Below, in pieces: positions 1,207 to 5,275 of a stretch of 6,287 nt of DNA. The notes under the pieces are model-generated. The model was given only the letters and a program-made list of their open reading frames with translations. It was not told the DNA's origin and searched no databases. Position numbers and translations under genes: made by a program. Positions within the stretch are counted from its first letter, which is position 1, and the number at the start of each line of letters is the position of its first letter. Source of the DNA: Negativicutes bacterium (lineage in GTDB: Bacteria; Bacillota; Negativicutes; JAGOZY01). The DNA lies in assembly GCA_018058445.1 (NCBI GenBank), contig JAGOZY010000073.1:1-6287 (forward strand), read 5' to 3'.

Positions 1207-1236
1207 TTGACAAGTTTACAGAATGATGTTTATAAT
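1207..1236 (+). promoter_or_regulatory. Consensus sigma-A promoter of the T-box/trpB operon
   Basis: Both boxes are exact: TTGACA (1207-1212) and TATAAT (1231-1236), separated by 18 nt. Transcription should start near 1243, immediately before the T-box stem I. Such a strong promoter fits an operon whose output is set by attenuation rather than by initiation. Confidence 0.93.
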
Positions 1237-1484
1237 GAGGCAATTGAATTTGCAAAGACGTTGATCAGGAAGAGTAGATTGTGGGAGAACTGTACAGCGA
1301 GTCGGTGACCGGAGAAGTCCGGAGGTGGGATGACCGACCAGGGGTAAGCAATCGAATGGTCCTGTGAGTTGGGTGTTTAAAGGCTTAGGCTGAGTAGGCA
1401 TTTCCGGAAGCCCCCGTTATCGTAGGCTAGGATATCGATTTTGATCCGTATCTGAAGAGAGGAAAAGTGTAGGCTTTTCGAATT

Positions 1485-1512
1485 AGGGTGGTACCGCGAG
1501 ATTTTCGCCCCT
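1485..1512 (+). promoter_or_regulatory. T-box antiterminator
   Basis: AGGG (1485-1488) pairs with CCCT (1509-1512), and GCGA (1496-1499) pairs with TCGC (1505-1508). This leaves TGGTACC (1489-1495) bulged for the tRNA acceptor end. The helix shares 1499-1510 with the terminator stem, so the two forms exclude each other. Confidence 0.9.
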
Positions 1513-1534
1513 GTGTGGGTGGAGGTCTTTTTTT
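1499..1534 (+). terminator. T-box intrinsic terminator
   Basis: AGATTTTCGCCC (1499-1510) pairs over 12 bp, with several G-U pairs, with GGGTGGAGGTCT (1517-1528) around a 6-nt loop. It is followed by a run of seven T (1528-1534). This is the default OFF state when tRNA-Trp is charged. Confidence 0.92.
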
Positions 1535-1562
1535 ATTTCCAAAAATGAAGGAGCTGAGGGTA

Positions 1563-1661
1563 ATGTTGCAGATGAATTGGCGATGGTGGCGAGTGATGTT
1601 TAATCCAATAAGGGGAAAAAGCGAACGATGGGATTCTTTGGCGAATTCTGGTGGAGTCTAA
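1563..1661 (+). CDS. Trp-rich leader peptide of a second trp attenuator
   Basis: This is a 32-residue ORF located between the T-box terminator and trpB. It begins MLQMNWRWWRVMFN and has Trp codons at residues 6, 8, 9 and 23 (TGG at 1578, 1584, 1587 and 1629). The ATG at 1563 is chosen because AAGGAG (1548-1553) precedes it by 9 nt; the in-frame ATG at 1545 has no ribosome site. The core WRWWR recalls the WWR of enteric TrpL. Its codons run into one arm of an RNA structure that competes with the terminator before trpB. The expected role is to sense tryptophanyl-tRNA through ribosome stalling, with the peptide itself dispensable. No protein family is recognised. It could in principle be a chance ORF, but four Trp codons, a good ribosome site and the downstream terminator together argue against that. 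Confidence 0.82.
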   Translation: MLQMNWRWWRVMFNPIRGKSERWDSLANSGGV

Positions 1662-1712
1662 GAATTTGTTTGAGATGATTCAGTGATTGATACTGGAGAC
1701 TTTTCGCTTTTT
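1616..1712 (+). promoter_or_regulatory. Antiterminator arms of the leader-peptide attenuator
   Basis: AAAAAGCGAA (1616-1625), inside the leader ORF, is perfectly complementary to TTCGCTTTTT (1703-1712). Nested just inside, AGTCT (1655-1659) pairs with AGACT (1697-1701), and CAGT/ACTG (1681-1684 with 1692-1695) forms an inner hairpin. Together the two helices would occupy the whole 5' arm of the terminator that follows. A ribosome stalled at the Trp cluster (1578-1589) leaves both upstream arms free. A ribosome at the stop codon (1659-1661) covers the second arm. Confidence 0.72.
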
Positions 1713-1739
1713 ACAAAGTGGAAGGTCTTTTTAATTTTT
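1697..1739 (+). terminator. Second attenuator terminator, just before trpB
   Basis: AGACTTTTCGCTTT (1697-1710) pairs along all 14 positions, four of them G-U, with AAAGTGGAAGGTCT (1715-1728) around a TTAC loop. TTTTT (1728-1732), AA and TTTTT (1735-1739) follow. It ends 29 nt before the trpB start codon, is distinct from the T-box terminator, and overlaps the antiterminator helices. Confidence 0.85.
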
Positions 1740-1768: not shown

Positions 1769-2944
1769 ATGAGTAAAGAAAATGTGGGACGTTATGGTGA
1801 GTACGGAGGGCAATATGTACCGGATGTGGTGATGCCGGCGTTGAAGGAGCTAGAGGATTTTTATGGACAAATTAAAAATGATCCAGAGTTTAAGGCGGAG
1901 CTTGAATACTATCTGCGAGAATATGCGGGGAGACCGACTGGGCTTTATTTTGCTGAGAATTTGACTCGCCACTATGGGCGAGGAAAGATATATCTGAAGC
2001 GGGAAGATCTTCTACATACGGGTGCTCACAAAATCAATAATGCAATTGGTCAGGCACTTGTCGCTCGGCGAATGGGTAAGAAAAAGATCATTGCTGAGAC
2101 TGGCGCAGGGCAACATGGGGTGGCGGCGGCGACTGTGGCTGCACTTTTTGGTATGGAGTGCGAGGTCTTTATGGGTGAGGAAGATATGCGCCGTCAGGAA
2201 CTGAATGTATTTAGAATGCGTCTGCTAGGGGCGAAAGTCACTGCAGCAACTCATGGTACGGGGACGCTTTCAGAGGCGGTCGATGCGGCAATTGGTCACT
2301 GGGTTGAAAATGTGGAGGATTGTTATTTTCTAATTGGTTCGGCAGTGGGGCCTCATCCGTACCCAGAGATTGTCCGGGACTTTCAATCGGTGATTGGCGA
2401 AGAGGTGCGGGAATCTGATGTGAAGCCGGATTATTTGGTTGCTTGTATTGGCGGAGGAAGTAATGCGATTGGTCTTCTTTATCCGTTCCGTAATGATCAG
2501 GGAATCAAGCGCTATGGGGTAGAGGCTGCGGGGCGTGGGTTTGCTGATGGAGATCATGCTGCGACGATGACGATGGGTCGGCCGGGAGTTCTTCATGGGT
2601 CGTTTACATATATTCTTCAAGATGAAAATGGAAAAGATATGTCGGCTTATTCGATTTCGGCGGGACTTGATTACCCGGGGGTGGGGCCAGAGCATTCTTA
2701 TTTTAAAGACGCCGGGATCGTAAAGTATGTGGCAGTAACTGATGCTCAAGCCTTGGAAGCTTTTGAACGACTTGCCAAAATCGAAGGAATCATTCCTGCC
2801 TTAGAGAGTTCTCACGCCTTGGCTTTCCTCGAAGATTTGATGCCTCAGACACAGGTAGACGAGATCGTCGTTGTGAATTTATCTGGTCGAGGTGATAAAG
2901 ATGTCCAGCAAGTCGCTGAAATAATGGGGGATAGAATTGGCTAA
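1769..2944 (+). CDS. trpB: Tryptophan synthase beta chain
   Basis: TrpB condenses indole with L-serine to L-tryptophan in the cytoplasm using PLP. The 391 residues are full length for the canonical TrpB1 class. The N-terminal [13 protein letters not shown] is typical. The PLP lysine is Lys88 in [10 protein letters not shown], the catalytic glutamate is Glu110 in AETGAGQHG, the PLP phosphate loop is GGGSNAIG (about 228-235), Glu346 lies in PALESSHA, and the ring-nitrogen Ser372 in SGRGDKD. The COMM-type segment that normally contacts TrpA is present, so it looks able to bind an alpha subunit, yet no trpA follows. The ATG has AGAGAGG about 10 nt upstream. It is the first gene after two successive Trp-responsive terminators and is followed 26 nt later by a UbiD gene. 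The missing trpA could lie elsewhere, or the enzyme may use free indole. Confidence 0.98.
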
Positions 2945-2970: not shown

Positions 2971-4311
2971 TTGGATTTAAAAGCGTGTTTGGTAAAGCTT
3001 GAACAAGAAAATCGACTCCTTCGAATTGTGGCGGAAGTTGATCCGGTTCATGAACTGGCTGGAGTAGCGGCAAAGCTTGAAGGAGACAAGGTGGTTCTTT
3101 TTGAAAATGTGAAGGGATATTCACAGCCTGTCGTCTGTGGACTGCTTTGGAATCGGGAGAATTTGGCCTGCTTGTTTGATACGGAGGCCGGCAAGCTTCC
3201 TTTCCTTTTTGCGGATGCAGTGAAAAATGTGGAGTATGAAAAATTTCTTCCGGTAGAAGTGGATAAACCTGCCGCGCAAGAGTTGATCATGCTGGAGCCG
3301 GATCTTTTTTCGATATCGACACCGACGTTGGCGCTAAAAGATGGTGGGCCTTATTATTCAAGCAGTGTGGTGATCGCCAAAGACCCTGACACGGGGGTTC
3401 GGAATCTTTCGGTGCATCGGCTGATGGTCACTGGGAAGAATCGCATGACGATGCTCATGGATGTGGGGCGGCATTTGCGGGATTATTATGAGCGGGCGGA
3501 AAAGCTTGGGAAGCCTCTTGAAATCACGATCAATAATGGGGTCGATCCGGCGGTATATTTTGCGGCGATTACGCCGAGCTCGGCGGTGGCGATCGACCAG
3601 GACGAGCTGACTGTGGCAGGATTTTTGCGGGGTAAGCCTGTTGAACTTTCCCGCAGTCAGACGGTTGCGGTAGAGGGCATTGCGGATGCACAGTTAATTA
3701 TTGAGGGGGAAATTCTACCGATGGTGCGGGAAACTGAAGGACCTTTTGGTGAGGTGACTGGCTATTATGGTCCGGCTGATGAGCGATGGGTTGTGAACGT
3801 TAAGGCAATTACTAGCCAAAAAGATCCGGTGATTCAGACTTTGCTTCCAGGAAAAGAAGTCTGGAATTCAGTTGGACTAATGGCGGAGGCGAGTATCTTT
3901 CAAACCATATCAAGGCAAGTCGCTGGTGTGAAAGGCGTTTATCTGAGTCATGGGGGCTGCGGTTTTTATCATGCGTATGTGCAGATGGACCCACCTCGAA
4001 AAGGGATGGCGAAGAATGCGATCTTGGCAACCTTTGCAGCTTTTGCGCCTTTGCAGATGGTGACTGTGGTGAACTCTGATGTGAATATTTTGGATGCCGA
4101 AGATGTTCAGCGGGCGATGGCGACTCGCTTCGTGCCGGATCAGGATTTGGTTTTGCTGCCTAAGAGCTTCGGGCATGAGCTTAATCCTGCCACCGAGGGG
4201 GGATATGGAGCTAAGATTGGCTTTGACTGTACCTATCCGCTACCGAAATCGCCTGACTACGAGCGGGTATCTTTTCAGGAAGTCGACTTGGCGCAGTATG
4301 TGAAAGTGTGA
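2971..4311 (+). CDS. ubiD: UbiD-family prenylated-FMN-dependent decarboxylase
   Basis: UbiD enzymes (de)carboxylate aromatic or conjugated acids using prenylated FMN, Mn2+ and K+. The 446 residues match the family length. Family residues fit by spacing with A. niger Fdc1: Asn145 and Arg150 in NLSVHR (Fdc1 N168/R173), His168 in GRH (H191), probably Glu212 (E233), and the catalytic pair Glu256/Glu261 in ETEGPFGE (E277/E282). The following TGYYG is also typical. The start is TTG, with GGAAGGGGA 9 nt upstream and no ATG or GTG nearby in frame. It lies 26 nt after trpB and 12 nt before ubiX, in one operon. The substrate cannot be read from the sequence. Candidates include hydroxybenzoates, a naphthoate of menaquinone synthesis, or a heteroaromatic acid such as an indole or pyrrole carboxylate. 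Placement under Trp control makes the last worth testing. Confidence 0.93.
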   Translation: MDLKACLVKLEQENRLLRIVAEVDPVHELAGVAAKLEGDKVVLFENVKGYSQPVVCGLLWNRENLACLFDTEAGKLPFLFADAVKNVEYEKFLPVEVDKPAAQELIMLEPDLFSISTPTLALKDGGPYYSSSVVIAKDPDTGVRNLSVHRLMVTGKNRMTMLMDVGRHLRDYYERAEKLGKPLEITINNGVDPAVYFAAITPSSAVAIDQDELTVAGFLRGKPVELSRSQTVAVEGIADAQLIIEGEILPMVRETEGPFGEVTGYYGPADERWVVNVKAITSQKDPVIQTLLPGKEVWNSVGLMAEASIFQTISRQVAGVKGVYLSHGGCGFYHAYVQMDPPRKGMAKNAILATFAAFAPLQMVTVVNSDVNILDAEDVQRAMATRFVPDQDLVLLPKSFGHELNPATEGGYGAKIGFDCTYPLPKSPDYERVSFQEVDLAQYVKV

Positions 4312-4323
4312 GGGAATTAATAA

Positions 4324-4887
4324 ATGAAGATAGTGGTGGGAATGACAGGTGCCTCAGGGGCGATTTATGGAGTTCGCTTGCTAGAGAGTCTTGCGAAGCA
4401 TTCTGTGGAAACCCATTTGGTGGTCAGCCAATGGGCGAAAGAAACTCTAAGGCTGGAGACGGACGTTTCTCTGGAGACTCTTCATGGGCTCGCCAGCAAA
4501 ATCTATGAGGAGTCAGATATGGCAGCTTCGATATCAAGCGGATCTTTTTATCATGATGGAATGGTAGTCATTCCTTGTAGCATGAAAACTCTTGCTGGAA
4601 TTCGGTATGGATTTTCGCAAAATCTGATTCAACGGGCAGCTGATGTGACTTTAAAAGAGAAACGGAAATTGGTTCTTGTTCCACGAGAGAGCCCACTAAG
4701 TTCGATTCATTTAGAAAATATGCTGAGTTTATCTCAAATGGGCGTTTTTATCGCCCCGCCCAGTCCTTCTTTCTATCATCAGCCTGATTCTATTTTGGAT
4801 ATTGTCGACTTTTCTGCGATGCGAATTTTGGATATTTTAGGCATTCGGGAGGAAAGCACCAAAAGATTGGGTGACGCAAATGGCTAG
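4324..4887 (+). CDS. ubiX: Flavin prenyltransferase UbiX
   Basis: UbiX joins a dimethylallyl group to reduced FMN to make prenylated FMN, the cofactor of UbiD. The 187 residues are the usual length. The N-terminal flavoprotein motif is GMTGASGAIYG (6-16). Further landmarks are VIPCSMKTLAGIRYG (82-96), NLIQRAADVTLKEKRKLVLVPRE (100-122) with the conserved VPRE arginine at 121, and SFYHQPDSI (149-157) near the C-terminus. The ATG is 12 nt after the ubiD stop, with AGGGA 8 nt upstream. Its 3' end overlaps the next gene by 8 nt, indicating translational coupling. Adjacency to ubiD means the decarboxylase has its own dedicated cofactor supply. Orthologous Pad1 and other UbiX paralogues catalyse the same reaction. 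Confidence 0.95.
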   Translation: MKIVVGMTGASGAIYGVRLLESLAKHSVETHLVVSQWAKETLRLETDVSLETLHGLASKIYEESDMAASISSGSFYHDGMVVIPCSMKTLAGIRYGFSQNLIQRAADVTLKEKRKLVLVPRESPLSSIHLENMLSLSQMGVFIAPPSPSFYHQPDSILDIVDFSAMRILDILGIREESTKRLGDANG

Positions 4888-5275
4888 TTCTTTCTTCTAT
4901 TCTCAAGGGCGAGTTAAATTGGCGATCGTAGGGCGCTGGATCGGGCCGGAGGATGTGGTGGTCGAACTGACTGGTGGAGATCGCCCACACATTGGCGCGG
5001 TTGCACTTGCCCAGATAAGGCCAAGCTTAAAGAATCCCAATGAGGCGAGTGCGACAACGTCTGTGTTGACTTGTCTGGGGCATCAAGAAGATGATCTTGC
5101 TAGAGGGATAGCAAGTCGTATCGCCAAGCGAGCGAAGATGAATGCTGTGGTTATTTGCGGGATTCACTTGGATGACATTTCAGAAGAAGAGATTCGCGAC
5201 GTGCTGACTGGGGCTGCGTTGCTGGAAGAAGAGATTCTTCAGTGGATTGAAAAGCAGAAAATTGCAGTAAATTAA
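4880..5275 (+). CDS. LpdD-like prenylated-flavin accessory protein
   Basis: A 131-residue soluble protein with no signal peptide or membrane segment. Conserved-looking blocks are TGGDRPHIGAVALA (31-44), GHQEDDLA (67-74) and GIHLDDISEEEI (94-105). These resemble the small LpdD/PAC_BAC family encoded next to UbiD and UbiX partners, such as the gallate decarboxylase genes of Lactobacillus plantarum, where a role in prenylated-flavin handling is proposed. The assignment is from memory of the motif and from context. ATG at 4880 is preferred because GGGTGA lies 5 nt before it; an in-frame GTG at 4871 is possible and would add three residues. It overlaps the end of ubiX by 8 nt and is the last gene of the operon. 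Its exact biochemical role is not established by the sequence. Confidence 0.72.
   Translation: MASSFFYSQGRVKLAIVGRWIGPEDVVVELTGGDRPHIGAVALAQIRPSLKNPNEASATTSVLTCLGHQEDDLARGIASRIAKRAKMNAVVICGIHLDDISEEEIRDVLTGAALLEEEILQWIEKQKIAVN

Follow-up and report, generated by a model that had tools for sequence, protein, structure and literature searches.

Two different tryptophan control elements are arranged in series upstream of trpB in a Negativicutes bacterium. A T-box comes first and is followed by a putative leader-peptide attenuator with tryptophan codons, and the two probably serve as successive transcription checkpoints in front of the trpB operon. The T-box itself belongs to a known family; what is new here is its succession by a putative ribosome-mediated attenuator, and no earlier account of a ribosome-mediated transcription attenuator behind a T-box was found in the accessible portions of the open-access literature. 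The window, which is the whole 6,287-nucleotide stretch of DNA analysed, constitutes contig C59 of G000, a draft genome of 1.32 Mb that is 74% complete. One other genome belongs to the same order (G001), making two examined in all.

The leader, roughly 530 nucleotides long up to trpB, is predicted to start at the sole site that matches the promoter consensus at 12 of 12 positions, and its first unit comprises the following features:

1207–1236, plus strand: sigma-70-type promoter (TTGACA-18-TATAAT), a 12/12 consensus match and the predicted leader start
1252–1515, plus strand: T-box leader, from stem I to the antiterminator (Rfam RF00230)
1357–1359, plus strand: UGG specifier codon (tRNA-Trp), at the specifier position of the Rfam alignment
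1485–1498, plus strand: T-box core AGGGTGGTACCGCG, read from the sequence
1498–1534, plus strand: terminator I with its T tract, a 13-pair stem of −17.1 kcal/mol

The T-box aligns with the full RF00230 model (positions 1–219) at 109.2 bits, compared with a gathering score of 93, and is a member of this family whose read-through in response to tRNA-Trp is predicted. Its specifier fits the regulated pathway, given that trpB lies downstream, and the GAATGG motif of the UGG specifier also stands ahead of the core in 13 further T-boxes of the class that are linked to trp genes. Terminator I has a stem (1498–1529) that runs into seven T nucleotides (1528–1534), and the Rfam alignment places the T-box antiterminator over the same bases, indicating that the two are competing structures. 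A sequence-only reading of this DNA had proposed a T-box with a UGG specifier, a core and its own terminator extending to 1534, and all of these elements are located as it described. A promoter scan found no promoter-like sites between the T-box and trpB; thus, both control units reside on one predicted transcript.

Tandem T-boxes are common on Bacillota trp operons, according to the available part of PMC12452182, and the leader could accordingly be an ordinary tandem of two T-boxes, the second of which escaped notice. A search of the window with Rfam, using permissive filters and E values of up to 1, returns one T-box, and there is no second core within positions 1535–1768. This explanation is highly improbable. 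The second unit instead begins with two overlapping reading frames that are rich in tryptophan codons:

1548–1553, plus strand: Shine–Dalgarno sequence AAGGAG of ORF 1, 9 nt 5′ of the ATG
1563–1661, plus strand: leader ORF 1 MLQMNWRWWRVMFNPIRGKSERWDSLANSGGV, with ATG at 1563 and TAA at 1659–1661, 32 codons
1628–1678, plus strand: overlapping ORF 2 MGFFGEFWWSLRICLR, 16 codons, a candidate second leader peptide

The AAGGAG sequence begins thirteen nucleotides past the T tract of terminator I, and ORF 1 carries Trp codons at 1578, 1584, 1587 and 1629 (codons 6, 8, 9 and 23), which include a WRWW cluster. An ATG-initiated ORF with at least three Trp residues in four codons arises in 7 of 5,000 dinucleotide shuffles of 1535–1690, and the same cluster preceded by a Shine–Dalgarno sequence arises in one of 5,000. 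Moreover, when 316 overlapping stretches of the window are considered on both strands, a Shine–Dalgarno-led ORF with three Trp residues in four codons occurs once, and this is ORF 1 itself. The Trp-rich ORF with a ribosome site that had been proposed for 1548–1661 is indeed present. ORF 2, which the sequence-only reading did not mention, uses a different frame and overlaps the end of ORF 1, with Trp codons at 1649 and 1652 (codons 8 and 9, WW), a stop codon at 1676 and a Shine–Dalgarno-like AAGGGG (1610–1615) located 12 nt 5′ of its ATG. WW in some ATG ORF appears in 64 of 3,000 shuffles and in a Shine–Dalgarno-led ORF in 8 of 3,000, and its occurrence in two frames at once is seen in none of 3,000.

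The stretch from within ORF 1 up to trpB can potentially form competing structures:

1593–1628, plus strand: weak ‘1:2’ hairpin, predicted at −4.7 kcal/mol, that could sequester the antiterminator arm
1616–1625, plus strand: antiterminator 5′ arm AAAAAGCGAA, inside ORF 1, a perfect complement of 1703–1712
1695–1739, plus strand: terminator II with a T-rich tail, a 16-pair stem (1695–1730) of −17.2 kcal/mol
1703–1712, plus strand: antiterminator 3′ arm, complementary to 1616–1625 and shared with terminator II, whose stem uses it as its 5′ arm

The stability of terminator II is matched by none of 500 shuffles of 1662–1768, which bears out the earlier claim of a second terminator before trpB. The competing antiterminator that had been postulated corresponds to the 10-nt perfect complement between the two arms, which is attained in 10 of 2,000 shuffles; the best duplex energy of the antiterminator region is ordinary (289 of 2,000 shuffles). 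In the predicted structures, antiterminator and terminator II are mutually exclusive by way of 1703–1712. An extra inner helix between 1654–1659 and the terminator arm forms in the duplex but was rejected, as its probability in the full fold is 0.00–0.15.

This architecture suggests a two-step model. In the first step, uncharged tRNA-Trp would bind the UGG specifier and the T-box core and hold the antiterminator in place, such that polymerase passes terminator I; with charged tRNA, transcription would stop near 1535. In the second step, the read-through transcript would expose the ribosome site and ORF 1. A ribosome held at the Trp codons (1578–1589) would leave 1616–1625 to pair with 1703–1712, preventing terminator II and allowing transcription of trpB. 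A ribosome that moves on would cover 1616–1625 while 1703–1712 emerges, permitting terminator II to form and transcription to stop near 1732, and if a ribosome also reads ORF 2 to its stop at 1676, arm pairing would again be unlikely and terminator II would result. Tryptophan shortage would in this way be read twice, directly as tRNA charging in the first step and as ribosome speed in the second. Since both steps would sense tryptophan shortage, the arrangement is expected to give lower basal expression and a sharper response rather than a two-signal computation. The term ‘AND gate’, which had been applied to it, is therefore overstated; both steps read a shortage of charged tRNA-Trp, and a series filter or a sharper threshold fits better.

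To model the second step, RNA was folded as polymerase exposes 1703–1712, with the ribosome assumed to cover −18 to +14 relative to the A-site codon. When the A site occupies the Trp codons at 1578, 1584 and 1587, the mean probability of arm pairing is 0.61, 0.49 and 0.51, respectively, which is about the same as the value of 0.50 obtained without a ribosome. The modelled probability is 0.89–0.91 at 1590–1599, the four codons that come after the Trp cluster, and 0.21 at the Arg codon amid the Trp codons. Thus, the model has better stall sites than the Trp codons, and stalling at the Trp codons themselves alters the modelled fold little. With the A site anywhere from 1605 to 1641, the ribosome covers the arm and modelled pairing is at most 0.01, and values of 0.06–0.46 are found from 1644 to 1656 and 0.35 at the ORF 1 stop. 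For ORF 2, modelled pairing is 0.08 and 0.26 at the two Trp codons and 0.06 at the stop, where the arm is uncovered. In its direction, the model fits the logic of trpL, wherein a held ribosome is permissive and a translating ribosome is not. Terminator II is favoured at equilibrium in every ribosome state (RNA end at 1730); because it wins once complete, timing rather than equilibrium would have to decide the outcome. The earlier proposal that both steps act on transcription holds in part. Two attenuator layouts do lie in series and the second ends in a terminator rather than a translational block, whereas control of terminator II by stalling is a prediction with a small modelled effect, pairing of 0.49–0.61 at the Trp codons comparing with 0.50 in the ribosome-free RNA.

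In the textbook E. coli leader, a ribosome at the stop codon covers the antiterminator arm. At the ORF 1 stop, a ribosome with an assumed footprint of 1641–1673 leaves the arm at 1616–1625 uncovered, and hence ORF 1 lacks this trpL-type masking. Because stop-codon masking fails and no relative with the unit was found among 380 class genomes, we do not file the second unit as a textbook trpL-type member, and only by prediction does it work like a ribosome-mediated transcription attenuator. It resembles E. coli trpL and the trp attenuators of Corynebacterium and Streptomyces in having clustered UGG codons in a short ORF and an antiterminator opposed to a terminator, as far as the accessible parts of the accounts go (PMC8346122, PMC1262725). 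In the same parts of these sources, no T-box is described for trpL-type attenuators, and the window further differs in that the ORF 1 stop lies 33 nt past the antiterminator arm.

A different origin and role for the second unit must also be weighed, namely that it is what remains of a duplicated T-box antiterminator/terminator domain, with Trp-rich ORFs that are coincidental or reflect general translation coupling and with a terminator II that is fixed or leaky. The T-box 3′ domain is indeed doubled in three trp leaders of the class (L164, L169 and L182), where the cores are 136–145 nt apart. In the window, 1456–1540 aligns with 1600–1745 at a score reached by 8 of 2,000 shuffles, and the likeness between terminators I and II alone is reached by 5 of 2,000 and that of a wider stretch by 20 of 2,000; however, the core portion of the alignment, taken by itself, lacks significance (1,029 of 2,000). 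Of 98 distinct T-box terminators, the six that match terminator II best are all trpB-linked, in a set that sampling had enriched for trpB-linked loci, but terminator II scores 15 against its own terminator I and 17, 16 and 15 against terminators of other genomes. The small change that stalling at the Trp codons brings to the modelled fold also speaks for a relic. Nevertheless, no T-box core is left in 1535–1768, the Trp-rich ORFs would go unexplained despite their rarity in shuffles (1 of 5,000 for the cluster; 0 of 3,000 for WW in two frames), and a duplicate origin is compatible with present function. On balance, we consider a mere relic unlikely. A scenario that joins origin to function is that a doubled T-box 3′ domain shed the core that binds tRNA and two overlapping Trp-rich ORFs came to occupy it, yielding serial tRNA-reading and ribosome-reading control of transcription by tryptophan that guards an indole-3-carboxylate-to-tryptophan operon in a bacterium that lacks trpA and trpC. 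This history may be entertained, although it strikes us as doubtful. The reading that we prefer is limited to two successive transcription checkpoints.

Among relatives, a search for the exact T-box core followed after 60–90 nt by TGGTGG identifies one of 380 class genomes, which is the window's own, and no relative sharing the second unit was found in these 380 genomes with patterns limited to the given cores and spacings. G001 yields a distant trpB-like match alone (E = 7.9e-6, 28% identity). A trpB scan of named genomes gave no match above 67% identity among the best 80 of 496 relatives, with Sporomusa and Selenomonadaceae providing the best matches. A core-motif scan of 120 loci revealed no further T-box with a Trp-clustered ORF behind it.

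Forty stretches upstream of trpB from 34 class genomes, some of which end at contig ends, include 20 with a T-box core, and GAATGG is present in 13 of those 20. A short ORF encoding WW or WxW and starting 15–260 nt past the core is found in none of the 13 GAATGG T-box leaders of the class, which are too distant to count as the window's own flanking sequence. Two scattered Trp residues in a short ORF occur in 4 of the 20 stretches with a core (L164, L169, L185 and L197). Locus L167 contains two ORFs with three Trp residues in four codons, but these fall outside its leader. As judged by sight, GAATGG leaders precede trp genes, trpB alone (L191) or ubiD–trpB pairs (L185 and L190).

A looser pattern, TGGNNNTGG, is found at 34 places in 34 of the 380 class genomes, and 30 of the 34 were inspected, the window included. 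Two loci (L273 and L274) combine the Trp motif with a WRW reading that starts inside the terminator stem and extends over the beginning of the following gene, and these were counted as chance; eight further places have a WxW reading but lack GAATGG. In a phylum sample, 59 places were identified in 54 of 398 genomes. Inspection of 46 of them (30 loci and 16 further places), with eleven that resemble coding DNA left aside, revealed one judged to be a real Trp-motif T-box with a WWW ORF (G401). Loci L244 and L245 were set aside, and L243 duplicates L147. Leaders whose T-box core or spacing differs escape both patterns.

The family of G401, which is assigned to the same phylum, provides a parallel arrangement upstream of trpS. 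The core followed after 50–80 nt by TGGTGG occurs in 25 of 148 genomes of this family. In 14 of the 148, a GAATGG T-box core and terminator are followed by an ORF that begins M(D/E)(D/G)GWW(W); because TGGTGG was required in the search, the Trp codons were selected, and the shared MxxG context was not. The ORF overlaps trpS in another frame in 12 of these 14 leaders (L122, L202, L205, L209, L210, L211, L213, L216, L217, L219, L220, L234, L235 and L236), runs into it in frame in one and stops shortly before it in one. A T run lies between ORF and trpS in 2 of the 14; trpS was named by sight, and terminators in this interval were judged by T runs alone. The recurrence of a T-box core with a WW-encoding upstream ORF in 14 trpS leaders suggests that such pairs recur for tryptophan. 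This trpS tandem of a T-box and an MxxGWW(W) upstream ORF likely resembles, by analogy, the anti-TRAP leader in being translational.

Indeed, the nearest precedent for the window's leader, by analogy, is the B. subtilis at (rtpA-ycbK) leader, which Chen and Yanofsky are said to have described in 2003 and 2004 as combining a T-box with the rtpLP peptide, the latter governing translation of anti-TRAP. Like that leader, the window has a Trp T-box with its terminator and then a Trp-codon ORF in the same leader; both elements reportedly read uncharged tRNA-Trp there, as both would here. In contrast, a second terminator and an enzyme operon as target are present here, so that both steps would act on transcription. 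The B. subtilis example, which reportedly acts on translation, and the trpS leaders, whose ORFs overlap or meet the next gene, lend some plausibility to the idea that translation of the leader ORF in the window hinders or promotes initiation at the gene downstream. However, ORF 1 and ORF 2 stop 107 and 90 nt before the trpB start with the strong terminator II in between, and in neither case does the ORF end at or overlap the next ribosome site, as an anti-TRAP-type ORF does. Translational control of trpB was rejected on the basis of this gap and terminator, and an anti-TRAP-like action of the second unit is quite improbable.

Trp-motif T-boxes also precede a small membrane protein that by sight resembles a tryptophan-transporter component, at L115 (contig C68 of G000) and L158 (G001), and no Trp-rich ORF was seen behind either T-box. 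Separately, T-boxes of G000 (L112) and G001 (L152) carry a second core-like GGTGG element.

The genes that the serial checkpoints would control form the following operon:

1769–2944, plus strand: trpB, tryptophan synthase beta (TIGR00263, 578.9 bits, cut-off 392.45)
2971–4311, plus strand: UbiD-family decarboxylase, likely an indole-3-carboxylate decarboxylase (PDB 7p9q, AnInD, E = 1.5e-109)
4324–4887, plus strand: ubiX flavin prenyltransferase (TIGR00421, 265.4 bits)
4871–5275, plus strand: LpdD-like protein (PAC_bac), likely a UbiD cofactor chaperone (PF21758, E = 2.8e-33; PDB 8pzh, LpdD, E = 2.2e-4)

AnInD (7p9q) is the best PDB sequence match of the UbiD-family protein, and its residues R155, D169 and E266, which the accessible part of PMC8988006 describes as catalytic or as contacting the substrate, align to R150, D164 and E261 (positions counted by hand). 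LpdD is a prFMN chaperone, according to the part of PMC10865409 available. Neither trpA nor trpC was found in G000 or G001, where 14 of 14 controls were positive and the drafts are 74–77% complete. Judging from these homologies, the operon likely encodes tryptophan salvage from indole-3-carboxylate, wherein the AnInD-like UbiD protein, UbiX and LpdD would make indole and TrpB would convert it to tryptophan.

Orthologues of the decarboxylase (57–63% identity) number 14 in the 380 class genomes. At 7 of the 14 loci (L309, L311, L313–L316 and L318), trpB is found no more than about 1 kb from the decarboxylase gene, and in five of those 7 a trpA-like ORF, recognized by sight, separates the two. 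The decarboxylase and trpB genes of L313 and L318 reside behind a Trp-motif T-box core. L310, which ends at a contig end, has a trpA-like ORF near the decarboxylase, and no trpB was seen near the decarboxylase at L306, L307, L308, L312, L317 and L319, some of which are near contig ends. Elsewhere in the window, a gene on the minus strand (162–644) encodes an ecotin-family protease inhibitor, which scores 164.7 against an NCBIfam cut-off of 162 and is unexpected in this group.

T-boxes and leader peptides are usually regarded as alternative answers to amino-acid shortage. The available parts of PMC2965389 and PMC9413887 report that leader peptides replace T-boxes at Bacillota his genes and that ribosome-mediated attenuators are predicted in the phylum; the two are thus alternatives for his, whereas in the window they occur in series. 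Like the tandem trp T-boxes of Bacillota, the leader would read tryptophan twice in succession ahead of trp genes, but in those tandems, as covered by the accessible text of PMC12452182, both sensors are T-boxes, and the second sensor here is a putative translated ORF. The tandem T-box/ppGpp riboswitch AND gate likewise joins a T-box to a further control element in series, although its second sensor is an aptamer for another signal, judging from the portions available of PMC9481103 and PMC7583486.

A single leader in which both mechanisms act on transcription would allow them to be compared on the same transcript, including which of them is the first to respond and what is gained from the second. 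The his screen of PMC9413887, in its accessible part, sought attenuators in genes that lack a T-box, and peptide screens restricted to such genes would miss leaders of this kind.
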